Assembly (NCBI GenBank): GCA_023382975.1
Contig: JAHDXO010000058.1
Location: 1 to 64,000, forward strand
Direction of reading: 5' to 3'
Source: Pirellulaceae bacterium
GTDB lineage: Bacteria > Planctomycetota > Planctomycetia > Pirellulales > Pirellulaceae
Length of the DNA stretch: 64,000 bases
Of the stretch, positions 1 through 14,401 are shown one piece after another. Position numbers and translations under genes: made by a program. The notes under the pieces are model-generated. The model was not told where the DNA came from and ran no database searches. It saw only the letters and a program-made list of their open reading frames with translations. How positions within the stretch are numbered: position 1 is the first letter of the stretch; every line of letters starts with the position of its first letter.

Positions 1-162
1 GCCCAGCGCCGTGGCATGGGCAGCCGCCTGCAACAGGTTGGCGATGATGGTAACGTTTCGCACGTTCTTGAGCGAAACGTAAGCGCCCGTGATTCCGCCG
101 TTCGTCGTCGCGATTGGCGAACCGCAAACGATCTTGTGGGTTTCCGTAAGTAGATGGCTCAT
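1..162 (-). CDS. Probable phage structural protein, N-terminal 54 residues only
   Basis: The gene runs off the left edge of the window. It begins at an ATG at 160-162, preceded by an AGGAG ribosome binding site that overlaps the stop codon of the capsid gene upstream, so the two are probably co-translated. The visible start is MSHLLTETHKIVCGSPIATT, followed by an alanine-rich helix-like stretch. I do not recognise the family. Position directly after the major capsid gene suggests a head-tail connector, decoration or other virion protein, but this rests only on context. Confidence 0.6.
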   Translation of the reverse strand, partial: MSHLLTETHKIVCGSPIATTNGGITGAYVSLKNVRNVTIIANLLQAAAHATALG

Positions 163-179
163 AGCGTGAATTGCTCCTA

Positions 180-1547
180 TTAGCGGGTTTGCAGGGCCAC
201 GGCCCACGACATCGTGGAACCAGTGCGCGGGGTGTAGACGCTGGAATACTTGGGCAAGCCGTCGACTCGGAGAATCGAACGCCACCCAACTTCGTCCGAC
301 TTGAACGCGACATGGCGGGAACTCTCGATGGTGACCACCTGGCGCATACCGAGCAGGTATTGGTTCAAATCGGCCAGTATAACGTCGCCGGTGGTGCCGA
401 CCGCGGAACAATGCTCGGAAACGACAACCGGCCTGCCCATGATGCTGTACTCGCCCGAGGCGGACAGACGAACCAGCCCAGCCCAGGGACCGCCCCCCGT
501 GCCTGCGGAAATCGTGAGTTGCTCCAACCACGGAATGACGCTCGGCGACACCATCCAAGTGGAACCGCGGTAGAACATCGGATGCAGTCTGCTGAACATT
601 TTGGCCAGATTGGCGACAACGAGCGAACCGGCCGCCTGCGCGTTTTCTTTGTCTTGCGTGATCGTTGACGGACTGTTCAGCAGCCCCAGGGGAGCGGTAG
701 CCCCATCGCCACGCAAAACAGCCCGGTCCAACTCGAAACTTTGAACCGTTTGCAGGGCGTCGATCAGCATGGACGGCCAGATTGCGCGGGAAGCGTCCGC
801 TTCCAACTCGTTGGACGTTTCCACATAGGTGGCAAACTTCTTCGCTTGCAATTTCACCGCGCGCATCTTGGCCGAGGATTCGTTGATCGTCGCCCCCTCA
901 GCGGTGATGCTGGACACCAGCCCGCCGAACATGCTACCGGCCGCGGACGTCGAATCGTCCCAGGCAGGAATGACAGTCGTTTCGGCGGACATCTCGATGG
1001 GGTAGCATAGAGGCCAAATGACGCCCCGTTCGTACAAGGAACCCCAGTATTCCGCGCGGAACTCCGAGGGAACCGCAAAGCCGCCGCTGGCGCCGCTGGC
1101 TTCCCCCATGCTGTTGGTCATCACCTGCGCCATGGCTTCCGAGTGGACACCTGCGCGGTACTGCCGGACAAGATCATGCAGATCGCTGAAGTCGCTCGAC
1201 ACCTGCGGGCGAATCCCGAACAGCTTGGCTGCCCATGCCTCGCCTTTGCCCATGCCGCTGGTATCGACCGGGCGGGGCGGGCAGTGGCGATTGCCGGGCA
1301 AGTCGCGCTCTTCGCTCCAGATCGGCGGCTGGCCTGCCTCGTGTTCCAAGCGTTGCCGATACAGACGCACGTCGGATTCGCACGCTTCCTTCAGGTCGAC
1401 CCAGCCGGCGAGTTGCTGTTGCTCCGCATCCGTCAATGCGCGATGCTGGGCCGCGGCGACTTTGTGGATGGTTTCGATGGACTCATCGGCGTCGCGAACG
1501 CGCCGTTCGAGTTGCTTCAGTCTGCGGTCAGTCAGTACTGCGGGCAT
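180..1547 (-). CDS. HK97-type phage major capsid protein
   Basis: The 455-residue product resembles HK97-fold major capsid proteins, which form the icosahedral head shell. Residues 1 to about 90 are charged and helical (LTDRRLKQLERRVRDADESI), like the delta/scaffold region that a prohead protease normally removes. The fold proper follows, with recognisable blocks such as GGFAVPSEF, the FATYVETSNELEADA helix, LDRAVLRGDG and the C-terminal VGWRSILRVDGLPKYSSVYT. The start at 1547 was chosen over longer in-frame extensions because it has a GGAG site eight bases upstream and lies three bases after the stop of the preceding gene. No protease or portal gene is next to it in the visible part, which is unusual for a complete prophage head module. 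Confidence 0.87.
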   Translation of the reverse strand: MPAVLTDRRLKQLERRVRDADESIETIHKVAAAQHRALTDAEQQQLAGWVDLKEACESDVRLYRQRLEHEAGQPPIWSEERDLPGNRHCPPRPVDTSGMGKGEAWAAKLFGIRPQVSSDFSDLHDLVRQYRAGVHSEAMAQVMTNSMGEASGASGGFAVPSEFRAEYWGSLYERGVIWPLCYPIEMSAETTVIPAWDDSTSAAGSMFGGLVSSITAEGATINESSAKMRAVKLQAKKFATYVETSNELEADASRAIWPSMLIDALQTVQSFELDRAVLRGDGATAPLGLLNSPSTITQDKENAQAAGSLVVANLAKMFSRLHPMFYRGSTWMVSPSVIPWLEQLTISAGTGGGPWAGLVRLSASGEYSIMGRPVVVSEHCSAVGTTGDVILADLNQYLLGMRQVVTIESSRHVAFKSDEVGWRSILRVDGLPKYSSVYTPRTGSTMSWAVALQTR

Positions 1548-1549
1548 GT

Positions 1550-2164
1550 TCAGTTCTCCAGTTCCAGGTTGTCGAAAATTTCCGCGGCCCGTTGTTCGCC
1601 GATCTTGTCGATCAGCGCGTCGCATCGGGCCAAACATTCGTCCGCGATAGCCGACCGAACCGCCAACGCTTGCCGGTGGGACAGCGCCGCGCCGGCCGGA
1701 CAGCCATCGGCCCACCAACGCGATAAGTCATCCGCGGCCCATCGCACCCGCTCGTCAGCAACGAGAATAGGCGCTGGCAGCTTACCCTCCAGCGCCCAGC
1801 GTAGAATCGTGTTCTCGTCCGCTTGGAACTTGCGGGCGATGTCGGCCAGTGTCAGTGAGTCAAGCATATCTCGGTTCCCCGTTGTTGCGTTACGTGAATT
1901 GTGACAAGGAACCTCCGGATCGTGAACAGCAACCAGATCGGAACCGGGGGACGGAACCGCAATTTTTGCGCCCTTTGTACCAGGCTTGGTAACGCCCCCC
2001 GTCTTTCGTCGCTCAGTCGGGGCGGGGATCGTCTCAGAACCTCGGGCGCTACACTGGGAACATGCCAAATATCTTCTGGCCAGCTTCCCCCCCGGCAAGC
2101 GCCTTGTCTTGTAAATCCGCATGTAGCCGGTGGCACATTTACAGCAGGGATCGCCTGAACGCAT
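1550..2164 (-). CDS. Zinc-ribbon and helix-turn-helix protein of the element
   Basis: A 204-residue protein with two parts. Residues 7-38 carry a CCxC and a CSQC pair separated by a basic stretch, consistent with a small zinc ribbon. Residues about 103-150 form a MerR/excisionase-like helix-turn-helix (LTLADIARKFQADENTILRW) followed by a wing-like segment ending in DDLSRWW. It is likely DNA-binding, perhaps controlling the late structural genes, because it sits directly before the capsid gene. Its start overlaps the stop of the preceding gene by one base (TAATG). A shorter start at 1867 is possible and would leave only the HTH part, so two functions in one reading frame are probable but not proven. 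Confidence 0.55.
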   Translation of the reverse strand: MRSGDPCCKCATGYMRIYKTRRLPGGKLARRYLACSQCSARGSETIPAPTERRKTGGVTKPGTKGAKIAVPSPGSDLVAVHDPEVPCHNSRNATTGNRDMLDSLTLADIARKFQADENTILRWALEGKLPAPILVADERVRWAADDLSRWWADGCPAGAALSHRQALAVRSAIADECLARCDALIDKIGEQRAAEIFDNLELEN

Positions 2165-2391
2165 TAGACGTCTACCTCCAGTTCAATGGCACGAACCACG
2201 CCGGGCAACGTGAACGCCAGCGAATCGGCCAACGCCCGGGCGAACGTCGTACCGCTGCCCAGCAACCCACCCCCGCGCCAGATCTCGACGCGCCCAGGGT
2301 GCCCAGGTGCAGGACCAGTTTCGACCAGTTGGGCAGCACCCCCGAACGCCTGTTGGACGATGCGCCGCTCAGTTCGTTCAGTTTCGATCAT
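2164..2391 (-). CDS. Small hypothetical protein of the element
   Basis: A 75-residue protein starting MIETERTERRIVQQAFGG, with a good AGGAG site about ten bases before the ATG at 2391; a longer in-frame start at 2457 reads into the repeat region and is less likely. I recognise no family. The short product has a glycine-rich middle and ends in ELEVDV. It is the first gene after the repeat cluster and its stop overlaps the start of the zinc-ribbon gene, so it belongs to the same transcription unit as the capsid gene. Confidence 0.5.
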   Translation of the reverse strand: MIETERTERRIVQQAFGGAAQLVETGPAPGHPGRVEIWRGGGLLGSGTTFARALADSLAFTLPGVVRAIELEVDV

Positions 2392-2423
2392 TTGCGGATA
2401 CTCCTGTCTTCTGAGAGTCAACA

Positions 2424-2633
2424 TTGCCAAGGCTGCCACTTTTTCTATACGTGGCAATGTGGCAATCTTGGCAACCTTGCCACTTGTCTTCTACGTGGCA
2501 ACCTTGCCACAACAACAACATAGCCATCAACTTGAAATATAAGGGAATTCTCACAAACGCCCCCCCTTCGGTGTCCTTGTATGCCAACATTGCCACTTGG
2601 CAAAGTAGAGAGTGGCAATGTTGAAAGTGGCAA
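2424..2633. repeat. Iteron-like cluster of GTGGCAA/TTGCCAC elements
   Basis: About eleven copies of the core GGCAA or its complement TTGCC occur in about 210 bases, in both orientations. They include TTGCCA at 2424, GTGGCAA at 2451, 2459, 2612 and 2627, TTGGCAA at 2468 and 2597, TTGCCAC at 2590, and a 16-base inverted pair GTGGCAACCTTGCCAC at 2495-2510. The middle (about 2511-2580) is AT-richer and free of copies. It lies just after the stop of the RepA-like helicase and before the structural genes. Repeat-bound initiation of element replication, or an operator for the late genes, are both plausible. Confidence 0.65.
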
Positions 2634-2642
2634 CCTTGAAAG

Positions 2643-4148
2643 TCATGCGGAATACTCCCCGAAGTCGTAAACGGTGCTTTCGGGTGCCTCGTCAGCGTCG
2701 GGCAGCATCCAGTACCACACCTGCCCGTCACGCTGCGAAATGATCCCCAACGCCTTCTTGGCCCGTTGAAGTGTCCGCTCCGAGATACCGACTCGCTTGG
2801 CCTCGGTGGAAAGCTTGCTGCTTTGAAGGCGTCCTTCCTGGAGTGCTTCCCGAAGCCAGTCTTCCGCTTCGTCTCGGGGAGTGGTATGTCCACCATCGCC
2901 CAGGTCGTCTGCTGTCATCGTGACGGCGCCGGCTTCCCACTCCAGGGCACCGTTGACGATGCGATAGGCGAGTCCCTGCGCGACTCCCAAGTTGTTCTTG
3001 ATCGGCAGCATCAACCGGCGTCCCTCCTGATCGGGACACCAGTCGACGAGCCAGCAAGCGCGTGCAGCCCCGACGAACGCGATAGAGCCGATAACGCGGT
3101 TGATCGCTTTGGCCTGTCCCTTGCTCAAATGCGTGATCCCGACGACCGCCACGTCCAAGGTTTCGGCCAGCTTGCACAACGGCCCCAACGCCGAACGCAC
3201 CTCAGCGTTCTTGTGACTGTCAATCTTGTCGCCCAGGAACGCGGTGATCGGATCGAGAATCACCAGCTTGGCGTCACGGTGGGCCTGTAGCCAATCGTTC
3301 AGGACGTCCAGGTACATCGTCAGTGTAAAGTGGTCCTGCCGCTTCCCCGTGGCCACGCAATCGACGTGATGAATTCGGCTACAGTCCGCATTGTGTCGTA
3401 CCAATCGCGGCTTGATCGTGTCTTCCGGCCCGTCCTCAGCGGTCATAATCAGCACTTGGGCCTGCGGACAATTAGCGCCGTCGGGGAACTTGGCACCTCG
3501 GGAAATCCGCGCCGCAATGTCGCATAGCAGGAACGTCTTGCCGACACCCGGGACACCAGCAACGAGCGATAGTTTTCCCAGGGCAATCCGGTCTTGCCAC
3601 AGCCAACTTACCGATTCCATCTGAATGTCTCCGTAGTTCCGTGTCTGGAGTGCCGACTTCTTGGGTTTGGCCTTGTCATCGCGGGCTGTGCGAGAATCTG
3701 ACTTCGCAATTTCCGAAGTCGCCGCGGGTATGGTGCCAAACGCTTTTGGATCGAAGTCGAAAGCGCCGTCCGGGATCTCGCTCGCGTCCGGTTCCCAGGA
3801 ATCGCCGCGCCAGTCGCCCGCCTCTTTGTCGGGTGGGGTGGTGTGCTTGCCGTTCATGGCCTTCCGCGCCAACTCCGATTCGAGCCATGCCAGCGCGGCC
3901 GGTTCAATGCCCAGCTTCCGGGCGAAACTTGCGACGTATCCGGCCCTTGCATCTGGATTGCCAAGATGTAGTGTCGCCCGGTGGGTCTTGCCGGAAAATG
4001 CGACGTCGACGCAATGTTCGCCGGTGTCCAGTTTGGTTGCGTCGATCCACGCGCCGGTGGGTTTGCCGTTGATTCTGCCCGATGTCTGCTGTACCATTGC
4101 TTGTGCTTCCGTATGCTTTTGCCCCGTCTCGCCAACGGGGCGTTTCAT
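2643..4148 (-). CDS. RepA/RecA-fold replicative helicase (AAA ATPase)
   Basis: A 501-residue ATPase like the RepA/Gp4-type hexameric helicases found in phages, plasmids and phage satellites. Walker A (GVPGVGKT) is at residues 198-205 and Walker B (KLVILDP, Asp299) follows, with a probable sensor segment VVGITHLSKG. The first 170 residues are a variable N-terminal domain; the last 85 look like a winged helix (SKLSTEAKRVGISERTLQRA). Likely role: opening DNA at the element's origin and driving replication. The start at 4148 was chosen because it follows the upstream stop codon by five bases with a TAGGG-type site; an ATG at 4097 with GGAAG is the alternative. The iteron cluster lies immediately downstream. 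Confidence 0.8.
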   Translation of the reverse strand: MKRPVGETGQKHTEAQAMVQQTSGRINGKPTGAWIDATKLDTGEHCVDVAFSGKTHRATLHLGNPDARAGYVASFARKLGIEPAALAWLESELARKAMNGKHTTPPDKEAGDWRGDSWEPDASEIPDGAFDFDPKAFGTIPAATSEIAKSDSRTARDDKAKPKKSALQTRNYGDIQMESVSWLWQDRIALGKLSLVAGVPGVGKTFLLCDIAARISRGAKFPDGANCPQAQVLIMTAEDGPEDTIKPRLVRHNADCSRIHHVDCVATGKRQDHFTLTMYLDVLNDWLQAHRDAKLVILDPITAFLGDKIDSHKNAEVRSALGPLCKLAETLDVAVVGITHLSKGQAKAINRVIGSIAFVGAARACWLVDWCPDQEGRRLMLPIKNNLGVAQGLAYRIVNGALEWEAGAVTMTADDLGDGGHTTPRDEAEDWLREALQEGRLQSSKLSTEAKRVGISERTLQRAKKALGIISQRDGQVWYWMLPDADEAPESTVYDFGEYSA

Positions 4149-4153
4149 GCGCC

Positions 4154-4447
4154 CTACCGAATAAATTCGATCCAACCGGCCCGCTGCTCTGGTTTGCGAC
4201 GTCGCCGGGGTGGGGTAGGTGTCGCCGGGCGGGGTTGTCGCGACTCCAGAAACGCTCGCAAGTCGTCTCTGCTGATGCGCCAACGGGCCTTGCCACGGCC
4301 GGGGCGCTCGGAAAGATCAGCGCCGCGCAACTGGCCACTCCGCAGCCACGACAAGACTTTTGCGTCGCGAACCCGCAGCAACCGGGCAACCTGGCCAGCC
4401 GTCAGAAACGCGGGGATCTCGGCTTGGGGGGTGGTGTTAGTTGGCAT
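4154..4447 (-). CDS. Excisionase-family helix-turn-helix DNA-binding protein
   Basis: A 97-residue protein with a MerR-like/excisionase HTH at residues 13-67: the pattern AFLTAGQVARLLRVRDAKVL followed by SWLRSGQLRG and a RWRISRDDLRAFLE segment is typical of the HTH_17 family. The C terminus is proline- and arginine-rich. Such proteins act as recombination directionality factors or transcription regulators in integrative elements. Its start overlaps the DUF1580 gene by eleven bases and its stop is five bases from the helicase start, so the three genes are translationally coupled. Confidence 0.8.
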   Translation of the reverse strand: MPTNTTPQAEIPAFLTAGQVARLLRVRDAKVLSWLRSGQLRGADLSERPGRGKARWRISRDDLRAFLESRQPRPATPTPPRRRRKPEQRAGWIEFIR

Positions 4448-4667
4448 CGGTGGCCCCCTCCGTCTCGCTTGTGGTGCTTGCGATGAACCGCTGGATGGCT
4501 TCCTTGGACGTGTAGCGACGTCCGCCGATCAGAACGCTCTCCAGCTTGACGCCACGGCAGCCGGCGTGCAGCCAACGCCAGACAGTAGCGATATGTCGCC
4601 GTTCAGGGAGCGATTTTGCAGCCGCCGATACAGTCAGCAGCCGTTCCCGATTGACGTTGATGGGCAT
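4437..4667 (-). CDS. DUF1580 family small protein
   Basis: A 76-residue protein with the pattern of DUF1580, a family I know mainly from planctomycetes: an N-terminal HTH-like region (LLTVSAAAKSLPERRHIATV), then VWRWLHAGCRGVKLESVLIG and GGRRYTSKEAIQRFI. This is a compact winged-HTH-like layout and probably binds DNA. It is the first gene of a coupled trio with the excisionase-like and helicase genes. Its GGAG ribosome binding site lies inside a long hairpin (4670-4724), so its translation may be controlled by RNA folding. Confidence 0.7.
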   Translation of the reverse strand: MPINVNRERLLTVSAAAKSLPERRHIATVWRWLHAGCRGVKLESVLIGGRRYTSKEAIQRFIASTTSETEGATDAN

Positions 4668-4669
4668 GG

Positions 4670-4724
4670 TTCGTTTCTCCGTCGCGTGCTCGGTAGTGAG
4701 TCACAACGCGACGGAGTAAACGAA
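4670..4724 (-). promoter_or_regulatory. Hairpin sequestering the DUF1580 ribosome binding site
   Basis: On the minus strand an arm at 4724-4706 (TTCGTTTACTCCGTCGCGT) is complementary to the arm at 4687-4670, with one bulged A and an 18-base loop, giving about 18 base pairs. The second arm contains CGGAG, the Shine-Dalgarno sequence of the ATG at 4667, which pairs with CTCCG in the first arm. No U-tract follows, so it does not look like an intrinsic terminator. It may repress translation until the RNA is opened by an upstream ribosome, a protein or a second RNA. The downstream genes overlap or nearly abut, so all three could be affected. Confidence 0.7.
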
Positions 4725-4757
4725 AAATCGGGGGGGCGCGTCAAATGAGGTGTCCGG

Positions 4758-5402
4758 TTAGCGTCCGGTGTGTCCAGTTTTCCAAAGGTGCTTGTAGCGG
4801 TTCGCTTGACGCAAGAGGCTCTCGGCCTTTTTATCGTCGCCGTCCACAAAATCGCGGGCAACGTCGATAAGCCGAACGCCGGGCACAACGTCACGTTGTA
4901 GCTTTTTGATAAGCGCCAGCAACCGGGGACTTTTCGGGCAAGAAATTTTCTGAGTGTCCGGTTTTGTGTCCGGTGTCCGGTTGGAATTGGCAGTCGGCGG
5001 GGCGGGCGACTTGGCAGCCGGTGGCCCCGCGATCCGCTCGAGCGCCTTTCGAACCGCTGCCAATCTGGACGGATCATAGGCTAGTTCGTGCGGATCGTGT
5101 ACCGGGAAGCTCGGGAACTTCGTTTGCTGCTGTCGCACTTGCTGGACAAGCAGAACCCGGCCGTTCCAGTCCTCGGGAAACACGGCGTCTTCAAACGCTC
5201 GAAACGCGGCTTCGGTGTCATCGGGCAGCCGGTGGCCAGCTTCGACGGTGGCCACGAACCACGCTTGCCAAACCCCGTTCGCCAGTTCCCGGAAACGGTG
5301 CAAGTCGGTTCTCGGCAGAACCGCGCCCGCAGTCGCCGGAACTTGTGTTGCGTCCAGCCACGACAAGAACTTGCGGGCTTGTTCGATGATGGGTTCGTGC
5401 AT
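4758..5402 (-). CDS. Hypothetical protein of the element
   Basis: A 214-residue protein of unknown family. Residues 1-120 are mixed alpha/beta with tryptophans (GVWQAWFVATVEAGHRLPDD); about 125-150 are a proline/threonine-rich linker encoded by short repeats of TGTCCGGT; the last 60 residues (SPRLLALIKKLQRDVVPGVR, then a DVARDFVDGDDKKAESLLRQ segment) look helical and could be an HTH-like domain. It lies between the integrase and the replication trio on the same strand. Its stop is about 35 bases before the regulatory hairpin, so its translation could influence folding of that structure. Confidence 0.6.
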   Translation of the reverse strand: MHEPIIEQARKFLSWLDATQVPATAGAVLPRTDLHRFRELANGVWQAWFVATVEAGHRLPDDTEAAFRAFEDAVFPEDWNGRVLLVQQVRQQQTKFPSFPVHDPHELAYDPSRLAAVRKALERIAGPPAAKSPAPPTANSNRTPDTKPDTQKISCPKSPRLLALIKKLQRDVVPGVRLIDVARDFVDGDDKKAESLLRQANRYKHLWKTGHTGR

Positions 5403-5517
5403 GTTTCGCCCTCCTGATTGGCGAATTCCTGAATTGAAGAAATCGACGGGCGGGGCGGTTCAGGATGTCCGCTTTTCAGGTGGCCTACCCTAGCCCGTCG
5501 AATCTGCATTGTACTCG

Positions 5518-6723
5518 TCAGCCAGCGGACGGAAAGCGCAAAGTCGCCGGTTGCTCGGTGGTATCGTCGGCAGCCGGTGGGAACAGCCACCCCCGGATTT
5601 GCTCGGCAATGGCTTCCAGACGCGAATCGGCAACAGATTCGCGATAGATCCCGCTCATCGTCTCGTCAACGTGCCCCATCAGCAGATTCAGCGCAACCTG
5701 ATCTTTCGCCCCGCCCCCGATCGTCTCGGCAACGTGCCTCAGCGCGTAGAACCCGCGGCCCTCCTTGTGCAACCCGGTTGCGTCCAGGATCTTTTTGAAC
5801 TCGGCAGACACGGGAACGTTCTTGCCAACGCCCCACGGCTTGCCGTACTTCGTCACGAAAACCAGGTTCTCGGCTTCCGGTACTTTGGCAGCCGGGCGGG
5901 CGTCGATAGCAGCCTGCAGCGCCTGAACGGTTTCGGGCCACAACTTGCAACGTCTGGCAACGCCCGTTTTTGGCCGCGCCCAGTCCAACCAGCCGGTTCG
6001 GATTGCCTCTTGTGCGACGTCCAACGGCAGCCCCGCGCAGTCGTGATTGCCGTATCCGGCATTGCAGCCCAGTAGGATCATGCAACGCATCTGGACGGAT
6101 GCCGCGCCCATGATGGTTTTGATCTCGTCAGCTTCGAACATCCGCGCCGGCCGTTTGGCCCGTTCCACCCGCAAGACGCGCCGGCTCGGCTTCTTGAAGT
6201 TCGGGCCAAATCGGACGGGCTTGTCCAAGATGCCCGCTTCCCAGCCATAGCCGAACACGGAACGAACGCGCTGAACTTCGTTGCCCAGCCGAACCGGCCC
6301 CCACTTGCTCGCGATGTCTGCCCGCAGTCGCTCGAAGTCTTCGGCCGTCAAATCTTCCACGGCTCGGCCAGAACCGAAGACACGCGCCAACCGCTCGCAA
6401 GTCGCGATGTTTTCGTCCAAGGTTCTCCGGCCGATTTCTCCGGCTTCAAACGCCAACTGCTTGGCGTTCAAAAACGCATTGGCCAGCGACTTGATAGCAA
6501 CCCGGGTGTCGTCTTTTGGGCGCGGCTTCCGTCCGGCAAGCAGATCATCCTTGACTCTCAGCCATTCCTCGAGCGCGGCTTGTCCATCTTCATCGCCTTG
6601 AACACGCCCGAAGTAATGCAGTTTGCCCCCGACCTTTTTGCACCACTGGCCCCGCGGGTGGCGAGTTAGCGGGAAGTCGGATTTCGGCTTGCGGGCGGGG
6701 CGGGTTCGAGTAGACTTCTTCAT
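5518..6723 (-). CDS. Tyrosine recombinase (integrase), divergent active site
   Basis: A 401-residue site-specific recombinase that would integrate and excise the element. A core-binding SAM-like domain spans about residues 75-180. In the catalytic half I see the beta-hairpin lysine (RPKTG, Lys252), ALRH (Arg329, His330), MGH (His351) and the tyrosine in SGIYRE (Tyr360). The first catalytic arginine, usually in a TGLRxxE-like motif, is not present; the matching stretch reads GCNAGYGNHDCAG. HxxR also starts with Tyr. I have the impression that similar motifs occur in other planctomycete integrases. The start at 6723 has a GAGGTG site seven bases upstream; an extension to 6843 would run through the GGTTGTACA repeats. 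Confidence 0.85.
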   Translation of the reverse strand: MKKSTRTRPARKPKSDFPLTRHPRGQWCKKVGGKLHYFGRVQGDEDGQAALEEWLRVKDDLLAGRKPRPKDDTRVAIKSLANAFLNAKQLAFEAGEIGRRTLDENIATCERLARVFGSGRAVEDLTAEDFERLRADIASKWGPVRLGNEVQRVRSVFGYGWEAGILDKPVRFGPNFKKPSRRVLRVERAKRPARMFEADEIKTIMGAASVQMRCMILLGCNAGYGNHDCAGLPLDVAQEAIRTGWLDWARPKTGVARRCKLWPETVQALQAAIDARPAAKVPEAENLVFVTKYGKPWGVGKNVPVSAEFKKILDATGLHKEGRGFYALRHVAETIGGGAKDQVALNLLMGHVDETMSGIYRESVADSRLEAIAEQIRGWLFPPAADDTTEQPATLRFPSAG

Positions 6724-6792
6724 GGGTTCACCTCTGCTTAACGGTTTCAGGTGGATCTTGCCCCGCTCGGATGTCAGCCGGGCGGGGCGTTT

Positions 6793-6854
6793 GGTTGTAC
6801 AGACGGTTGTACAACCACCAAAAACAGTATATCGGTTGTACAAATGGTTGTACA
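6793..6854. promoter_or_regulatory. Two spaced pairs of GGTTGTACA repeats (arm sites or operators)
   Basis: GGTTGTACA occurs at 6793, 6805, 6834 and 6846, all in the same orientation. Within each pair the start-to-start distance is 12 bases, and the two pairs are 41 bases apart, close to four helical turns. The second copy is part of a 12-base palindrome, GGTTGTACAACC. The block lies between the integrase start (6723) and the tRNA (6910), where arm-type integrase or excisionase sites of an attachment region are expected. An operator for the integrase promoter is the alternative. Confidence 0.65.
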
Positions 6855-6909
6855 GAGGGAAAACGAGAAAATGAGAAACACCAAGAAAACCCGGTAAAAA
6901 TCAGCATTT

Positions 6910-6982
<73 letters not shown>

Positions 6983-7256
6983 CTCTTCTTCTTTCGCGAA
7001 CTCAGCGCGACACGGAGGTTCGCTCTCCGGCCGTAAATGGGGCATGCGGGAGGCTCGGAGGCTGGGAATCACGATCCGTCACAAGACCAGATCTTAGCAG
7101 GCCTGCGCAATTGTCATATTTTTCTGCGCAATCACGATATGGCAGGCTCAAAGTAAGGCGGGTATTCTTGTCGTTTGGCTCGGCGGCAACCTCCCGATTG
7201 GACCGCCGTCGGGTCTGCCCCGCCTCACTCCCCAAGACACAGGAGAATTCGACGCC
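6983..7256. promoter_or_regulatory. Leader of the GH127 gene with AraC-type direct repeat
   Basis: CTGCGCAAT occurs at 7103-7111 and again at 7124-7132, exactly 21 bases apart, and each copy is followed by a further match (NNN then C/G then ATAT), giving two similar 17-base half-sites. Direct repeats with a 21-base period are the classical layout of AraC-family operators. They lie about 125 bases before the GH127 start. I saw no coding sequence in this stretch and no candidate regulator gene next to it. The GH127 start itself has an AGGAG-like site (acaggagaattc). Confidence 0.4.
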
Positions 7257-9779
7257 ATGAAATCGTTCCTCTTCCTCTCGCTGGCCTACCTGCTCTGTTG
7301 TCTGGGAGCCACTCGTGCAGCGGACTTTGAAGCATCCGCTTCGCAAGAGTGTCTCGAACCGGTTCGTCTGGAATCGATTGAGATCGGCGGCTTCTGGAAG
7401 CAGCAGGCCAAACGGTTGACGGAGCAGTGGTTGCCGCACTGCATCCGCCAGATGGAAAAGGGTGGCCGCGGCCAGGAGTTTCTCAATCTCGTGGCCTTGG
7501 CCCGAACGCAACGCGGCGAGGCTGCCGACTGGAAATACAGCGGCGCGCCGTGGAGCGACGCCTACGTGTACAACACGGTGGAGGCAATTTGCCTGGCGCT
7601 CGCGGTCAAGCCCGACGGGGACGCTGAACTCGCCCGCGCCCAGGCCGAGTTGCGCGCGAAGCTCGAGGAGTGGATTCCAGTCATCCTCGCCGCGCAGGCG
7701 CCCGATGGTTACATCCACTCGTTCCATGTCCTCAACAATCACCCACGCTACAGCAATGTCGGCTGGCACGAATTCTACGTGATGGGCTACTTTCTGGAGA
7801 TGGGTGTGGCGCATTACCGGATGACCGGCGGCAAGGACCGGCGGCTCTACGATGCGGCGGTGCGGTGCGGCGACCACCTGTGCGCCACGTTCGGTCCGCC
7901 ACCCCAGCGGACTTGGCGCAATGGACATCCGGGACTGGAATACGCGCTGTGCCGTCTGGGGCGGCTGGTCAACGAGGTCGAAGGCGCGGGCCAGGGCGAC
8001 AGGTACATCCGCCTGGCTCGGCATTTTCTCGATCACCAGCACGAGGGCGGAAACCCGAGCGAATACAACCAGTCTGACAAGCCGGCGGTCGAGTTGAGCG
8101 AGGCGAAGGGCCATGCGGTGCGCGCCACCTATTTTTACACCGCCATGACCGACATCGTCCTGCATCAAGGCGGCGATGCAGCTTACCGGCAGGCGGTCTC
8201 CCGCATCTGGTCAAACGCGATTGATAAGAAACACTACCTGACCGGTGGTGTCGGCGCATCTCACCACGGCGAGGCGTTTGGCGGCGACTACGAACTGCCC
8301 AACGATGCTTACTGCGAGTCGTGCGCCGGTTGCGGCCTGACCTTCTGGGCCGACCGGATGCACCGGCTGCACGCAGATGGCCGTTACCGCGACGTTCAGG
8401 AGCGGACGCTTTACAACAACATCCTTGGCGCCATCGAATTGACCGGCACGAATTTCTATTACCAGAATCCGCTGGATGCCAGCAACGCCAGGTATCCGTG
8501 GCACGGATGCCCCTGTTGCGTCGGCAACATTCCCCGCTCGCTGCTGGCGATCAAGGACGGGATCTACTCCGTCAACCCGGCGCGAACCGAACTCTACCTC
8601 AGTCACTATGTGGACAGCGACGCCTCGATCCCCGATGTCGGCGGTGGCGCGCTGCGAATCCGGCAGGCCACGCGTTACCCGTGGGACGGCGACGTGAGCG
8701 TGACGTTGCACCCGGCAGGCGAGGCCAATTTCATGCTCAAGCTGCGCATCCCGGATCGGACCGAGAGCGAACTGTATTCCGCCACCCCCGACCTCGGCGA
8801 TCGGTTCACCGTCCGCGTGAACGGCCAGCCGCAATCGCCCCAGATCGAGCGGGGCTACATCGCCTTGCGCGGCCCATGGAAGGATGGCGACCGGATCGAG
8901 CTGTCGTTGCCGATGGAAGTCCAGCGCGTCCAGGCCGATCCGCGCGTCGCCGCCAACGCCGGACGCGTGGCGCTGCAGTACGGACCGCTGGTCTATAACG
9001 TCGAGTCCGTGGACCTGCCATCCGGCAAGAGCCTCGACACGCTCGCCCTCGCCGCCGATTTGCCCCTGCGCGCCGAGTGGGACGACGGACTGCTGGGCGG
9101 CGTGCTGGCCATCCGCGGCGAGTTTGCCGATGGCACGCCGCTGCAGGCGATCCCGAACTTCGCCCGACTGAACCGCTTTCAGCGCAAGCCGCGATGGGTT
9201 CACTTGGCCAACACCTACGACGGCGTCACGCAGCGCGTCTATGTGAACGGCCGGCTGGCCAAGTCGCGCCAGCCCGGGCCGCTCAAAGTCGCCGACACGC
9301 CGCTGACCATCGGCAGCGACCCGTTCGGCCAGAAGCGGCATTTCCAAGGCGCACTCGCCAAGCCGGCCATCTTCAACGCCGCGCTCGACGAGAAGAGCAT
9401 TGCCCAACTGGCCGCCGCCACGCCCAACACGGCAGTCCTGGGGGTGGAAACGAAGCCGGTGTTCCTCGGCAAAGACTTCACGCTCGATGGCACTGGCCCC
9501 GTTGTGATACCAGAGAACGTCGGCATCTCCGGCAACTCGCCCTGGACGATGAGCGTCTGGGTCAAGGGCGCCGCCGACAACTGGTCGCCCGACCATTTCG
9601 GCATGGGCATCTTGGGCTGGGGCAAGTCAGGCCGCGATGCGGGGAACTTCCTCTACTACCGGCCCGAGGGCGAGGTCGTGTTCGGTTTCTACAGCAACGA
9701 CGACCGAGCGCCCACGGGCGAGTCCGCCCTCGGCCGTTCGATCGTCTGGCTGCGGGAGCAAAAGGTGAGCGGGAATTAG
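7257..9779 (+). CDS. Secreted GH127 beta-L-arabinofuranosidase with broken LamG-like tail
   Basis: An 840-residue protein with a signal peptide (MKSFLFLSLAYLLCCLGATR) and a GH127 (DUF1680) catalytic part over about residues 30-636. Family zinc-site and catalytic residues are visible: GEAF (Glu339, acid/base), CESC (Glu354, Cys356) and CPCC (Cys420 nucleophile, Cys421). It would remove terminal beta-L-arabinofuranose. The tail is odd: after AIPNFARLNR, where GH127 proteins would continue, the sequence jumps into the middle of a LamG-like domain (WVHLANTYDGVTQRVYVNGR), then starts a second one that stops abruptly at 9779. The gene looks like a recombination product. It heads the carbohydrate cluster. 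Confidence 0.85.
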   Translation: MKSFLFLSLAYLLCCLGATRAADFEASASQECLEPVRLESIEIGGFWKQQAKRLTEQWLPHCIRQMEKGGRGQEFLNLVALARTQRGEAADWKYSGAPWSDAYVYNTVEAICLALAVKPDGDAELARAQAELRAKLEEWIPVILAAQAPDGYIHSFHVLNNHPRYSNVGWHEFYVMGYFLEMGVAHYRMTGGKDRRLYDAAVRCGDHLCATFGPPPQRTWRNGHPGLEYALCRLGRLVNEVEGAGQGDRYIRLARHFLDHQHEGGNPSEYNQSDKPAVELSEAKGHAVRATYFYTAMTDIVLHQGGDAAYRQAVSRIWSNAIDKKHYLTGGVGASHHGEAFGGDYELPNDAYCESCAGCGLTFWADRMHRLHADGRYRDVQERTLYNNILGAIELTGTNFYYQNPLDASNARYPWHGCPCCVGNIPRSLLAIKDGIYSVNPARTELYLSHYVDSDASIPDVGGGALRIRQATRYPWDGDVSVTLHPAGEANFMLKLRIPDRTESELYSATPDLGDRFTVRVNGQPQSPQIERGYIALRGPWKDGDRIELSLPMEVQRVQADPRVAANAGRVALQYGPLVYNVESVDLPSGKSLDTLALAADLPLRAEWDDGLLGGVLAIRGEFADGTPLQAIPNFARLNRFQRKPRWVHLANTYDGVTQRVYVNGRLAKSRQPGPLKVADTPLTIGSDPFGQKRHFQGALAKPAIFNAALDEKSIAQLAAATPNTAVLGVETKPVFLGKDFTLDGTGPVVIPENVGISGNSPWTMSVWVKGAADNWSPDHFGMGILGWGKSGRDAGNFLYYRPEGEVVFGFYSNDDRAPTGESALGRSIVWLREQKVSGN

Positions 9780-10168
9780 GTGCAGACGACCAGCCGCAAC
9801 CAACCAAGCGAGGACCGCACAAACTGCTTGGGAATCGTGTGACCAGGCTGGCCCTGGACCCATCCCCGAGTTCCTAAGAAATCCTCGTGCCCGTTCGATC
9901 CGTCGCGCTGACCTTGGCCGATCCTGACCCGACGAACGAGAACACGGTAGACGCTCCCAAGAAGACCGTGCCCAACGAATCGACGGTGGCTGTTTCGGTG
10001 CCCGAATTGGAGAAACCCCTTTGAACGGACGCTGCCTTCAAATTCGAAGCGGGTCAACCGACAAACTGGCTTTCCACGTCTTGACCCGCTGCATGAAATA
10101 CCGCTGGCGCCTTGACGCCTTCGACGACAGCGGCCTGACCGCCGGTGCGAACCTTCAGGAGAAATGCC
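9780..10168. other. Gene-poor gap before the sulfatase
   Basis: No intact gene is visible. The middle part (9880-10115) holds frameshifted coding remnants described separately, and the final bases supply the AGGAG site for the sulfatase start at 10169. Confidence 0.7.
9880..10115 (+). pseudogene. Remnant of a GH51-like arabinofuranosidase C terminus
   Basis: Reading from 9887 gives SVALTLADPDPTNENTVDAP followed by KKTVPNESTVAVSVPELEKP and a stop. Skipping one C at 10019 continues as FERTLPSNSKRV and on to a stop at 10113. The combined pattern (hydrophobic strand, ADPDPTNENT, a P-K-K-TVP step, final LPSNS) resembles the C-terminal beta-sandwich end of GH51 alpha-L-arabinofuranosidases. Another shift near 9880 joins it to NPRARS. 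With at least two frameshifts and no catalytic domain it is a dead fragment. The family assignment is from memory of the pattern and is tentative. Confidence 0.45.
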
Positions 10169-11758
10169 ATGAAGCACCACCACTTATTCTTCGCCGCCCT
10201 GCTGCTGGCTCCGCTTCCTGCGCTGCATGCTGGCGACGGCAAACTGCAGCGACCCAACATCGTCGTTATTCTGGCCGATGATCTCGGATTCTCGGAACTC
10301 GGCTGCTACGGTTCGGACATCGCGACGCCGAACCTCGACCGGCTCGCGGCCAACGGGTTGCGTTTCACCCAGTTCTACAACACCGCGCGCTGCTGGCCGA
10401 CGCGCGGCTCGCTGATGACCGGCTACTACGCGCAGCAGATCCGGATGGATCCGCCGCAACGACGCTTCCCGGCGTGGACTCGCACGTTGCCGCAATGGCT
10501 CAAGACGGCAGGATATCGTTGTTACCATTCTGGCAAGTGGCACGTCTTCGGCGCGTCCGATCCGCGGAGCGATGCTGGATTCGATCATTCCTATCAAATC
10601 GAAGGCGGCCAGAACAACTACTTCAAAGCATCGGATGTTACCGAAGACGGCAGGCAGTTATCCGACCAGCCGGGATTCTATATGACGACTGGCACGGCGG
10701 ACCATGCGATCCGCTGCCTGAAGGAACACGCGGAAAGATATTCCGGCCAACCGTTCTTCGAGTATCTGGCGTTTATTGCGCCGCATTTCCCCTTGCATGC
10801 GTTGCCGGAGGACATCGCCCGGTACCAGGACCGGTATCGGAAAGGCTGGGATCAGGTCCGCGAGGAACGCTGGCAGAACCTGCGCCGGATGGGCATCGTC
10901 CATTGCGAGCTGTCCCCGCTAGAGACAGCCTTCGCGCCGCGGTATTTCAAGCCGGAGTACCTACAAACTCTCGGCCCCGGCGAGATTCAACATCCGGTGC
11001 CGTGGTCCCAATTGACCGCCGAACAGAAACAGTTCCAGGCCACGAAGATGGCGATCCACGCGGCGATGATTGACCGGATGGATCGGGAGATCGGGCGCGT
11101 GCTGGATCAAATCCACGCCATGGGCGAGTGGAACAACACGATCATCTTCTTCCTGTCGGACAACGGCACGGACGCCACGATCATGGTGCGCGGCGGGGGA
11201 CATGACCCGGCTGCCACGCCCGGTTCCGAGAGATCCTACCTGTGTCTCGGTCCGGGCTGGTCGAGTGCTGGCAACGCGCCGTTCCGGCGTCACAAAGTCT
11301 GGACGCACGAAGGCGGGATTTCCACGCCATTGATTGTGCATTGGCCCAAGGGCATCGCCGCTCGTGGCGAACTGCGCCACGACGTGGGCCATGTCGTTGA
11401 TTTGGTCCCGACGCTGCTGGACTTGGCCGGCATCCAACCGGATTTGGCGGCCGGTGCGCCGTCGTTGCCCGGACGCAGCTTGGTACCGGCCTTCGCCAAA
11501 GACGGCAGTGTGACCCGCGACTATGTTTTCTTTCACCACGAAGGCAACCGTGCGTTGCGGGTGGGCCACTACAAGCTCGTTTCCGCCAAGGAGGACAAGA
11601 ACGCTTGGGAGTTGTTCGACCTTGCGACGGACCGTTGCGAGCAACACAACCTGGCCGCCGAACAACCGGAACGCGTTCGTGCGATGTCCGCGCGTTGGCA
11701 GGAGTTGCAGGAACAGTTCACCCGCGACGCGGGTCTCGCCTCACCGGCCGCGCAATAA
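10169..11758 (+). CDS. Secreted formylglycine-dependent sulfatase
   Basis: A 529-residue type I sulfatase with a signal peptide (MKHHHLFFAALLLAPLPALH). The metal-binding start RPNIVVILADDLGF is followed by the C-x-P-x-R motif CWPTRGS, whose Cys75 is oxidised to formylglycine by a separate maturase. Further hallmarks are SGKWH and LSDNGTD. It would remove sulfate esters from a polysaccharide, probably outside the cytoplasm. The start at 10169 is preceded by AGGAG; an upstream in-frame start at 10145 would lack a clear site. It lies between two GH127-type genes, which suggests a sulfated arabinose-containing substrate, but substrate cannot be read from the sequence. Confidence 0.9.
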   Translation: MKHHHLFFAALLLAPLPALHAGDGKLQRPNIVVILADDLGFSELGCYGSDIATPNLDRLAANGLRFTQFYNTARCWPTRGSLMTGYYAQQIRMDPPQRRFPAWTRTLPQWLKTAGYRCYHSGKWHVFGASDPRSDAGFDHSYQIEGGQNNYFKASDVTEDGRQLSDQPGFYMTTGTADHAIRCLKEHAERYSGQPFFEYLAFIAPHFPLHALPEDIARYQDRYRKGWDQVREERWQNLRRMGIVHCELSPLETAFAPRYFKPEYLQTLGPGEIQHPVPWSQLTAEQKQFQATKMAIHAAMIDRMDREIGRVLDQIHAMGEWNNTIIFFLSDNGTDATIMVRGGGHDPAATPGSERSYLCLGPGWSSAGNAPFRRHKVWTHEGGISTPLIVHWPKGIAARGELRHDVGHVVDLVPTLLDLAGIQPDLAAGAPSLPGRSLVPAFAKDGSVTRDYVFFHHEGNRALRVGHYKLVSAKEDKNAWELFDLATDRCEQHNLAAEQPERVRAMSARWQELQEQFTRDAGLASPAAQ

Positions 11759-11905
11759 CCGCCTGCCTAGCCAAGCAGATAACGACCGTGAAACGAACCC
11801 TGATCACGATCGCGAACAACCCGCTCGTCGACGTGAATCCCCAGTCGCGCGGTGCAGCAAGCGACCATCGCATGTGACCAGAAACTCCCGCAAGGAACTT
11901 GACCG

Positions 11906-14401
11906 ATGACTCACTCCGTCCCTTGTCGTTTCGCCCTCGTGGTATTGCTCGGTGGTCCGCTGATCGCGACCGCCGAGGCCCAGGACCGGGTCGTCGTGGT
12001 CGCTCGTCCGGACACCGCAGCGGCCAACGAGCACTACGCCGGCAATCGGCCGCCGCTGCTGCCCAGCCCGCTGATCAAGCTGCCGACCGGATCGATCACG
12101 CCCCGCGGTTGGCTCCGCAAGCAGCTTGAACTGGAGGCCGAGGGATTCACGGGCCATCTGACCGAGATCAGCAGCTTCTGCCGCAAGAAAGGCAACGCTT
12201 GGCTGAACCCCGAGGGTGAGGGTGGCGCCACGTGGGAGGAAGTCCCTTACTGGTTCCGCGGGTTCATCGCGTTAGGATACGCGCTGGACGATCAGCGAAT
12301 CATCAAGGAATCGCAGCCGTGGATCGAGAACCTGTTCGCCACGCAACAGGCGGACGGCTATTTTGGGCCGCCGAAGAACCGGGGTGACGAAGCACGCGGT
12401 CCCGATCTGATGCCGAACATGAATATGCTCTTCGCGCTGCGGTCCTACTACGAATTCACGGGCGACCGGCGAGTGTTGGACGTGATGACGAAGTACTTTC
12501 GTTGGCAACTCACGATCCCGGACAAACGATTCTTCTCCGGCGGCTGGCAGGTTCCGCGCAACGGCGACAATTTGGACAGCGTCTATTGGCTGTACAACCG
12601 CACCGGGGAACCGTTCTTGCTGGAACTGGCCGCCAAGCTTCAACGGTGCGGCGCGTCGTGGATGAACGTCGTCACAGGCGGGCACAACGTCGATTTCTCG
12701 CAAGGCTTCCGCAAGCCGGCCCTGTTCTATCAACAGAACCACGATCCTAAATTCCTGGAAGCGACCGAGAAGAACTGGGAGAGCATCATGGGCCTCTACG
12801 GCCAGGTGCCCGGCGGGATGTTCGGGGGCGACGAGTTCGCGCGGCCCGGCTACACCGATCCACGGCAGGCCATCGAAACGTGCGGCGCCGTCGAGATGAT
12901 GATCTCCGAGCAGATGCTGCTGCGGATCACCGGCGATCCGAAGTGGGCGGATCGCTGCGAGGACGTGGCTTTCAACACGCTGCCGGCCACGATGACCGCC
13001 GACATGAAAGCCTTGCGCTATCTCACTTCGCCCAATCAGGTCAACTCGGACGCACGCAGCAAGGCGCCGGAATTGGCCAACGCCGGACCGATGCAGGTGA
13101 TGAACCCGCACGATCATCGCTGCTGCCAGCACAATGCCGGAGTCGGTTGGCCCTGCTTTGCCGACAGCCTGTGGTGCGCGACTCCCGGCAACGGCCTGGC
13201 CGCTGTCTTCTACGCGGCTTCGACCGTCCAAGCCAAAGTCGGAAACGGCGCCAAGGTCACGATCGAACAGCAGACGCAGTACCCGTTTGACGGCACCGTG
13301 AAATTCACGCTCAACGCGGACGACGCGGTCGCGTTTCCTCTGTACCTGCGCGTGCCCGGCTGGTGTGCCGACGCCGCCGTCGAACTCAACGGCCGGACCA
13401 TGCCGGTGTCGAGCCGTGCCGGTGCGTTCCTCTGCGTCGAACGGACTTGGCAGCCGGGTGATACGCTGACGCTCAGCCTGCCGCTCGACATCCGCCTGAC
13501 CAAGTGGGAGAGAAACCAGAATGCGGTCTCGGTTCATCGTGGCCCGCTGACGTTCTCGATCAAGATCGGCGAGCGGTACGTGCGGTACGAACCGCAGCGG
13601 TTCGCCGACCCGTGGCCCGCTTGGGAGATCCTCGCCACGACGCCCTGGAACTACGCGATCGGAGCCGACACCGTCGACCCGGCGGCTTCGTTCCAGGTCG
13701 TCACGAAAGCATGGCCGGCCAACGACATGCCCTTCACGCACGAAGGCACGCCGATCGAACTCCGGGCGCAGGCGCGCAAGCTGCCGAACTGGAAGGAAGA
13801 CCATGTAGGGTTGGTCGACAAGCTCCAGCCCAGTCCCGTCCAGTCGTCGGAGCCGTTGGAATCGGTGACGCTGATCCCGATGGGCGCCGCGCGACTGCGT
13901 CTGGCGGCGATCCCCGTGCTCGGCGACGGTCCCGATGCGCGCCAGTGGCAACTGCCGGCCGAGCCGCTGACCTCCTACAGCCGTGGCATCGGCATCGATC
14001 CTTATGAAGCCATGTTCGACGGCAAGCTGCCGAAGAACTCGAACGATCGCGGTTGCCCGCGATTCACCACCTACTGCTTCGGCGGAGCCGAGCACGGCAA
14101 GCGGCATTGGGTGCAGAAGAACTTCGACCAGGAAACCACGGTCTCTGCGTGCGAGGTCTATTGGTACGACGAATCGCAACCGCTGGGCGACGTCCGGTTG
14201 CCCAAGTGGTGGCGCGTGCTCTACAGGAGCGGCACGGAGTGGAAGGAAGTGGAGAACCCCAGCGATTATGGGATCGAACTTGACCGATTCAACGTCGTGA
14301 CGTTCAAGCCCGTCCGGACCACGGCCGTGCGGCTGGACGTGCAATGCCAAGACGAACGCGGCCGATGGGCGATGGGCATTCTCGAGTGGCGGATCAAGTG
14401 A
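11906..14401 (+). CDS. Secreted GH127/DUF1680-like glycoside hydrolase with discoidin-like tail
   Basis: An 831-residue protein with a signal peptide ending near TAEAQ. Residues about 50-620 follow the DUF1680 pattern: an alpha/alpha-barrel with ETCGAVEMM (Glu324, Cys326) and DHRCCQHN (Cys406, Cys407), matching the zinc/nucleophile residues of GH127. It is distant from the first GH127 in this window and may belong to a related family such as GH146. Residues about 670-831 look like an F5/8-type (discoidin) sugar-binding module, with VQKNFDQETTVSACEVYWYD and a closing RLDVQCQDERGRWAMGILEW segment. It is downstream of, and co-oriented with, the sulfatase, 147 bases away. Confidence 0.82.
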   Translation: MTHSVPCRFALVVLLGGPLIATAEAQDRVVVVARPDTAAANEHYAGNRPPLLPSPLIKLPTGSITPRGWLRKQLELEAEGFTGHLTEISSFCRKKGNAWLNPEGEGGATWEEVPYWFRGFIALGYALDDQRIIKESQPWIENLFATQQADGYFGPPKNRGDEARGPDLMPNMNMLFALRSYYEFTGDRRVLDVMTKYFRWQLTIPDKRFFSGGWQVPRNGDNLDSVYWLYNRTGEPFLLELAAKLQRCGASWMNVVTGGHNVDFSQGFRKPALFYQQNHDPKFLEATEKNWESIMGLYGQVPGGMFGGDEFARPGYTDPRQAIETCGAVEMMISEQMLLRITGDPKWADRCEDVAFNTLPATMTADMKALRYLTSPNQVNSDARSKAPELANAGPMQVMNPHDHRCCQHNAGVGWPCFADSLWCATPGNGLAAVFYAASTVQAKVGNGAKVTIEQQTQYPFDGTVKFTLNADDAVAFPLYLRVPGWCADAAVELNGRTMPVSSRAGAFLCVERTWQPGDTLTLSLPLDIRLTKWERNQNAVSVHRGPLTFSIKIGERYVRYEPQRFADPWPAWEILATTPWNYAIGADTVDPAASFQVVTKAWPANDMPFTHEGTPIELRAQARKLPNWKEDHVGLVDKLQPSPVQSSEPLESVTLIPMGAARLRLAAIPVLGDGPDARQWQLPAEPLTSYSRGIGIDPYEAMFDGKLPKNSNDRGCPRFTTYCFGGAEHGKRHWVQKNFDQETTVSACEVYWYDESQPLGDVRLPKWWRVLYRSGTEWKEVENPSDYGIELDRFNVVTFKPVRTTAVRLDVQCQDERGRWAMGILEWRIK

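Follow-up and report, generated by a model that had tools for sequence, protein, structure and literature searches.

The first 6909 nt of the window, a 64-kb stretch of Pirellulaceae bacterium DNA that begins at base 1 of contig JAHDXO010000058.1 (C58), carry a truncated mobile element that is, with a probability that we put at about 0.8, a helper-dependent phage satellite of ~10.2 kb with a private capsid protein and a private small terminase subunit (TerS). This reading draws on the boundaries of the element, its gene content, the modules that it lacks, the recurrence of such elements with precise ends and the separate clade that their capsids form. The original prediction, made from the letters of the window, had proposed a capsid-encoding integrative element or phage satellite, which is now supported by a complete sister element on contig C43 and by bounded relatives. 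The assembly (GCA_023382975.1, 10.46 Mb in 139 contigs), to which C43 and the further contig C13 also belong, is estimated to be 97.4% complete and 5.97% contaminated.

Gene content of the window element

Window proteins were scanned with Pfam and PHROGs, and tRNAs were called with ARAGORN. Starting at a tRNA-Arg (CCT) gene, the minus strand of positions 1-6909 runs from an integrase through a capsid gene to a decoration-like gene that is cut. The tyrosine integrase (401 aa; 5518-6723, minus strand, as are all the genes that follow) matched PHROG 1 (5.8e-22) and, below the Pfam cut-off, PF00589 (1.4e-4), and shared 43% identity with the integrase of the C43 element. Farther along lie a small DNA-binding-like DUF1580 protein (76 aa; 4437-4667; PF07618, 1.9e-14), an AlpA/excisionase-like protein of the helix-turn-helix (HTH) family HTH_17 (97 aa; 4154-4447; PF12728, 8.4e-12; excisionase-regulator PHROG 66, 9e-9) that is 66% identical to its C43 copy, and a RepA-like AAA_25 replicative helicase (2643-4148; PF13481, 2e-30; PHROG primase/helicase families). 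Just 3′ of the RepA gene, nine matches to the iteron TGGCAANNTTG are packed into 220 bp (2419-2638), where chance alone would give 0.32 over the full 64 kb. All the matches of the window are confined to this block, which is probably the replication origin. A zinc-ribbon plus HTH_17 protein (1550-2164; HTH_17, 3.9e-4, below the cut-off; PHROG 66, 1.4e-6) is encoded directly upstream of the capsid gene; positional homologues of it were found in the related loci L025, L026 and L031, and two separate genes occupy its place in C43.

The capsid gene (180-1547) encodes an HK97-fold major capsid protein of 455 aa (PF05065, 4.9e-37), 44% identical between window and C43, and the profile of this capsid family matched solved phage, RcGTA and HK97 capsids. 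The AlphaFold model contained an N-terminal helical, delta-like region with a helix at residues 2-71, the remainder of the model being poor (shallow alignment). Downstream, positions 1-162 hold the 5′ part (54 codons) of a gene whose product is 92.6% identical to the corresponding C43 protein and which is cut by the contig end; the truncation of the element at its left is that of the contig, because the window begins at base 1 of C58. This gene probably encodes a head-decoration protein: in satellites and complete phages alike, its homologues come immediately after the capsid gene, and the protein was modelled, at low confidence, as a beta-sandwich, with no convincing match among solved structures.

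Each of the genes named in the original prediction (integrase, HTH, DUF1580, RepA-like helicase and HK97 capsid on one strand) was thus located by Pfam or PHROGs as claimed, together with the iterons. The absence of tail, lysis and lysogeny-repressor genes, also claimed, held for the visible part of the element, where Pfam and PHROGs hits revealed none of them.

Integration site and ends of the element

The element lies on the 5′ side of its integration target, the tRNA-Arg (CCT) gene (6910-6983, plus strand). Beside the integrase gene, a 73-bp attachment site (att) copy (6875-6947, plus strand) consists of ~35 bp upstream of the tRNA gene and the 5′ half of the gene, up to TTTCCTAA. When the assembly was searched with the tRNA-Arg 5′ half, exactly one other place was found, on the minus strand of C13 (1374-1401), inside a copy of the 73 bp that is 97% identical (C13:1371-1443). 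C13 carries the half tRNA only, which ARAGORN does not recognise by itself, and a tRNA-Arg that ARAGORN did recognise was obtained once the 3′ half of the window's tRNA had been fused to the C13 flank. Because the half-tRNA duplication marks the far att and the junction restores tRNA-Arg, the first base of C13 lies inside the element, and C13:1-1443 is its far end with the other att copy. The second attachment site that the original prediction had looked to was therefore obtained, and the leftward extension in part. By alignment, base 1 of the window corresponds to position 84417 of C43 and base 1 of C13 to about 86346, from which we infer a gap of ~1.9 kb and a whole element of ~10.2 kb. The ends of C58 and C13 both fall within stretches identical to C43, as fits a collapsed repeat.

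Several repeated motifs accompany these ends. Five GTTGTAC motifs lie within 60 bp between the integrase gene and att (6794-6854), and five are also found at C43 77923-77977; six occur in the 57 kb of the window outside the element, and one palindromic pair, GTTGTACGTACAAC, is present at each distal end (C13:1234 and C43:87057). From their sequence and position, these clusters are candidates for arm-type sites of the integrase or for an operator. Both tRNA half sites are preceded by a motif TTTTTACCG(T/G)GTTTT, which recurs within the element end (window 6892; C13 1315 and 1418; C43 77876, 87138 and 87240), and a similar motif precedes tRNA-Arg in the sister genome G884. At the far end of the window element, a 36-39 nt repeat occurs four times in C13 515-773, at a spacing of 71-76 bp and with unique spacers of 35-40 nt, two of them palindromic. 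This candidate CRISPR-like or hairpin array has no other copy in the genome, is absent from the C43 element and gave weak, chance-level matches to phages, and an Rfam scan of the C13 end produced no match.

A complete sister element on C43

The second element of the assembly is complete and measures 9.46 kb (9463 bp from att to att). It is bounded by a tRNA-Ser (TGA) gene (C43:77779-77866) and by a 70-bp att copy at ~87191-87260, which comprises the 5′ half of tRNA-Ser and sequence upstream of it. After the capsid gene come, in this order, a 158-aa protein, an 85-aa open reading frame (ORF), TerS, a 118-aa ORF, a 161-aa ORF, a non-coding stretch and att. TerS belongs to the P27/Terminase_4 family (PF05119, 4.3e-8; PHROG 83, 1.8e-13). 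No large terminase subunit (TerL), portal, protease, connector, tail or lysis gene was found in the complete element by the Pfam and PHROGs scan. Of the terminase, portal, protease and tail genes that the original prediction had proposed to search for, the small terminase subunit alone came to light in the sister element. The leftward tail and lysis genes that would have pointed to an ordinary prophage are absent from this element, of which both ends are known.

Relatives in Planctomycetota and a separate capsid clade

Capsid searches in all 241 genomes of the family, in ~400 from the order and in ~390 from the phylum returned a modest number of relatives. A peptide-pattern search based on the alignment of the two capsids gave no close relatives among genome contigs and viral contigs; a pattern from a second pair retrieved a Pirellulales contig, L046 (the same as L025), plus only distant IMG/VR capsids, which, where enough surrounding sequence was available, belonged to ordinary phage head modules. 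Genes in the relative loci were called by a simple codon-usage script, so that small genes may be missed.

We found that satellite elements of the window's kind recur in Planctomycetota. Ten elements without TerL and portal were identified, namely those of the window and C43 and the loci L025, L026, L027, L031, L033, L034, L098 and L108, the ends of L026, L031 and L033 not being both defined. Exact att repeats delimit L025 (43 bp, tRNA-Glu), L027 (45 bp, a tRNA-like sequence), L034 (33 bp), L098 (tRNA-Leu) and L108 (48 bp, tRNA-Arg). Integrase, replication gene and capsid, with TerL and portal lacking, are again found together between such exact repeats in L025, L027, L098 and L108, and the lack of conserved boundaries that would have spoken against the original prediction was not encountered. 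From att to att the elements span 9463 bp (C43), 9553 bp (L025), 9434 bp (L027), 9611 bp (L098), 7858 bp (L108) and 15360 bp (L034); the four bounded elements of the capsid clade described below therefore all fall within 9.43-9.61 kb despite differing genes and insertion sites. Integrase, AlpA-like, zinc-ribbon/HTH and capsid genes are common to the window, C43, L025 and L031, in all of which the decoration-like gene follows the capsid, and TerS was recognisable in C43, L025, L026, L027 and L033.

Many other relatives of the capsid belong to complete tailed phages (L028, L114, L115 and others), in which TerL, portal, capsid and decoration-like gene follow one another in order, often with a protease before the capsid, and connectors and tail genes are present as well. 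Set against these phages, the satellites lack a specific subset of genes. In a maximum likelihood tree of 30 capsid sequences, those of the window, C43, L025, L026, L027 and L098 formed one clade (support 100/98) with no complete phage inside, and those of L033/L034 and L108 were placed outside it. This placement indicates that capsid-bearing satellites arose more than once; for the capsids of capsid-forming phage-inducible chromosomal islands (cfPICIs), three radiations have been reported (PMC11389934). A single clade for all satellite capsids was rejected (p-AU 2.6e-6).

Short tape-measure genes were also observed in L033 (12312-14695) and L034 (12106-14419), both from genome G157, and in L031 (5354-6118; genome G329), with matches to PF20155 (4.6e-24) and PF06791 (8e-10); L098 (genome G638) gave a weak PHROG hit only. 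These four loci are capsid-bearing, with neither portal nor TerL nearby, and the G157 elements encode in addition an S49 head protease.

Proposed life cycle and alternative explanations

On the reading of the window element as a helper-dependent satellite, the integrase would recombine at the 5′ half of tRNA-Arg. Upon infection by a helper or its induction, the AlpA-like and HTH proteins would switch on excision, and RepA would replicate the element autonomously from the iteron origin, two steps suggested by the gene families. The element's own HK97 capsid and decoration protein would then build a small head, and its own TerS, as read in the sister element, would steer the TerL of the helper to satellite DNA. 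The helper would provide TerL, portal, connectors, tail and lysis and, in the window/C43 subtype, the head protease as well. Helper dependence, small-head assembly and packaging are thus what we infer from the missing modules and the gene families. The near-constant length of 9.43-9.61 kb suggests a packaging limit set by the fixed volume of a small head, and a rough scaling from a T=7, ~40-kb HK97-type head would give ~11 kb for T=3.

In agreement with this reading, the portal family PF04860 and the TerL family PF03354 had no match in the whole assembly, while the control genomes and planctomycetes with complete phages gave matches; a helper of these families would not be resident if the element moves.

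A number of points weigh against this reading. Neither a helper nor induction, a particle or a packaging site has been identified. The genome-wide search was limited to the one portal and the one TerL family, others not being searched. The assembly lacks ~1.9 kb of the element in the window, and the content of this gap is taken by homology from C43 rather than seen, because the gap sequence occurs once in the assembly, on that contig. With a contamination of 5.97%, C43 and the C58/C13 pair may come from different cells or related strains. In neither L098 nor L108 was a TerS detected. Finally, no empty locus at the same site was found in the sister species G882 and G884; their tRNA-Arg genes are intact, as are the tRNA-Ser genes of G882, and a strict comparison is precluded by short contigs or by flanks that lack synteny.

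The main rival explanation, which we regard as unlikely, is that the capsid homologue co-assembles with the capsid of the helper and so reduces the size of the helper's head, a mechanism proposed for Ccm of SaPIbov5. Apart from this precedent and that of PmCI172, whose capsid homologue makes small heads (PMC6092414), the absence of an encoded protease or portal and a length of 9.4-9.6 kb, which suits a small head, would agree with it. However, the capsid is full length and has a delta-like N-terminal region of its own, and a cognate decoration-like gene comes next in 5 of the 6 elements of the clade. Moreover, the capsids of the satellites branch as an old clade of their own, whereas a subunit that co-assembled would be expected to follow the capsid of its helper.

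Much less probable, and rejected, is that the elements are decaying prophages stripped of tail, portal and terminase. Although their capsid, TerS and decoration genes are of the complete-phage kind and the capsid frame of L031 is broken, the frame is intact in the other 9 of the 10 elements examined, and several independent elements lack the same set of genes while having exact att ends and near-equal length. Neither does the six-member capsid clade, devoid of complete phages, fit decay, nor do dN/dS ratios (nonsynonymous to synonymous substitutions) of 0.19-0.24 in two genes shared by the window and C43, with 0.54 in a third of which 54 codons are available. We also reject, as very improbable, an ordinary prophage with tail and lysis genes hidden in the unsequenced gap: the ~1.9 kb that are absent are an estimate by homology, but the flanks of the gap are homologous to neighbouring points of C43 whose 1.93 kb consist of small genes and TerS only, both contig ends are C43-identical, as for a collapsed repeat, and C13 carries the far att copy. 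A domesticated encapsulin-like shell or a gene transfer agent in place of a mobile satellite can be dismissed as scarcely credible, since the HK97 fold, the absence of portal and tail and the match of the family profile to the RcGTA capsid are outweighed by an integrase, att duplications, replication genes with a putative iteron origin and TerS, which denote a mobile, self-packaging element, as well as by the absence of a cargo gene and by insertion sites that vary between genomes.

Comparison with known satellites

A helper-dependent satellite of this kind can be set beside several described groups. With phage-inducible chromosomal islands (PICIs) it shares specific att sites bounding a small island, here as tRNA-half duplications at both ends, and the succession of integrase, AlpA/regulator and replication gene followed by an origin (PMC6092414). 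It differs in size, 9.43-9.61 kb for the four clade elements and an estimated ~10.2 kb for the window against ~15 kb, and in carrying major capsid and decoration-like genes where PICIs are described as free of structural genes; no lytic gene was found. PICIs with a capsid homologue are nonetheless known and accepted (PMC6092414). Among these, SaPIbov5 (with Ccm), PmCI172 and EcCICFT073 resemble the planctomycete elements in their integrase, AlpA/regulator, replication gene, capsid homologue and sometimes TerS, and EcCICFT073 also has a head-decoration gene (PMC6092414). Unlike these ~15-kb islands, the planctomycete elements measure ~9.5-10 kb, have the capsid as a common feature of the family and contain no recognised Stl/Rpr repressor or interference gene.

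The original prediction had compared the element with cfPICIs. The comparison holds for the kind of element, given the integrase, the own major capsid protein (PF05065, 4.9e-37) and the presumed dependence on a helper for tails, but not for membership. cfPICIs are defined by portal, head protease, connectors, TerL, TerS and HNH (PMC10690885), and Pfam and PHROGs revealed no portal, head protease, connector, TerL or HNH gene in the window or in the complete C43 element; what the planctomycete elements retain is limited to a capsid, a decoration-like protein and TerS. Lacking portal, protease, TerL and connectors, they are not cfPICIs.

The window element does fit the integrase-plus-capsid working definition used for candidate PICIs of mycobacteria. 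These candidates, which include phiRv1 and phiRv2, are small elements with integrase and major capsid, often in tRNA genes, and some carry helicase, terminase and scaffold genes (PMC10654092). phiRv1 and phiRv2 belong to another phylum and probably carry a different capsid lineage. The phiRv elements have genes for a head protease and for TerS; the window and C43 elements, by contrast, have no protease. The Streptomyces satellites MulchRoom and MiniFlayer likewise have their own capsid and TerS and use the tail of a helper, and they possess TerL, portal, scaffold and direct terminal repeats and no replicase (PMC10690885). The planctomycete elements, in contrast, have a replication module and neither TerL nor portal. 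TerL, portal, tail and lysis genes, which mark a complete temperate phage, are all missing from the complete C43 element. By analogy, the kinds that these elements appear to resemble most closely are the mycobacterial phiRv1/2-type PICIs and SaPIbov5/PmCI172.

Implications

Satellites shape phage ecology and gene flow. In a partial coverage of the literature, we found no published description of phage satellites in Planctomycetota, and the PICI survey (PMC6092414) does not mention this phylum. The planctomycete family comprises complete, bounded elements with a minimal set of genes (integrase, replication gene, capsid and usually TerS) and a separate capsid clade, which makes it testable whether a satellite can pair a private capsid with the portal and motor of a helper and whether the length of the elements is held near 9.5 kb by the volume of the capsid. 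We also advance, as a doubtful extension, an old Planctomycetota satellite family with a dedicated small-head capsid lineage and TerS that uses the portal and motor of a helper, some members of which (in G157, G329 and possibly G638) would set their own tail length on the helper's tail tube with a short tape-measure protein. If true, a satellite dictating both head size and tail length would represent a new mode of phage parasitism.

Other genes of the element and neighbouring region

Two further genes of the window element, also on the minus strand, have close counterparts in C43: a conserved protein with no assigned function (214 aa, MHEPIIEQARKF...; 4758-5402), 95% identical to the C43 copy over 124 aa and with a dN/dS of 0.24, and a 75-aa ORF (2164-2391) with 99% DNA identity over 219 bp. 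At the DNA level, the otherwise diverged window and C43 elements share two blocks, 2174-2392 (99%) and 5015-5589 (92%), candidate readings of which are recent exchange between satellites and a conserved cis site beside the iterons. To the right of the tRNA gene, the host region at 7257-14401 encodes, judging from the translations only, a beta-L-arabinofuranosidase-like protein, a sulfatase and a further glycoside hydrolase.

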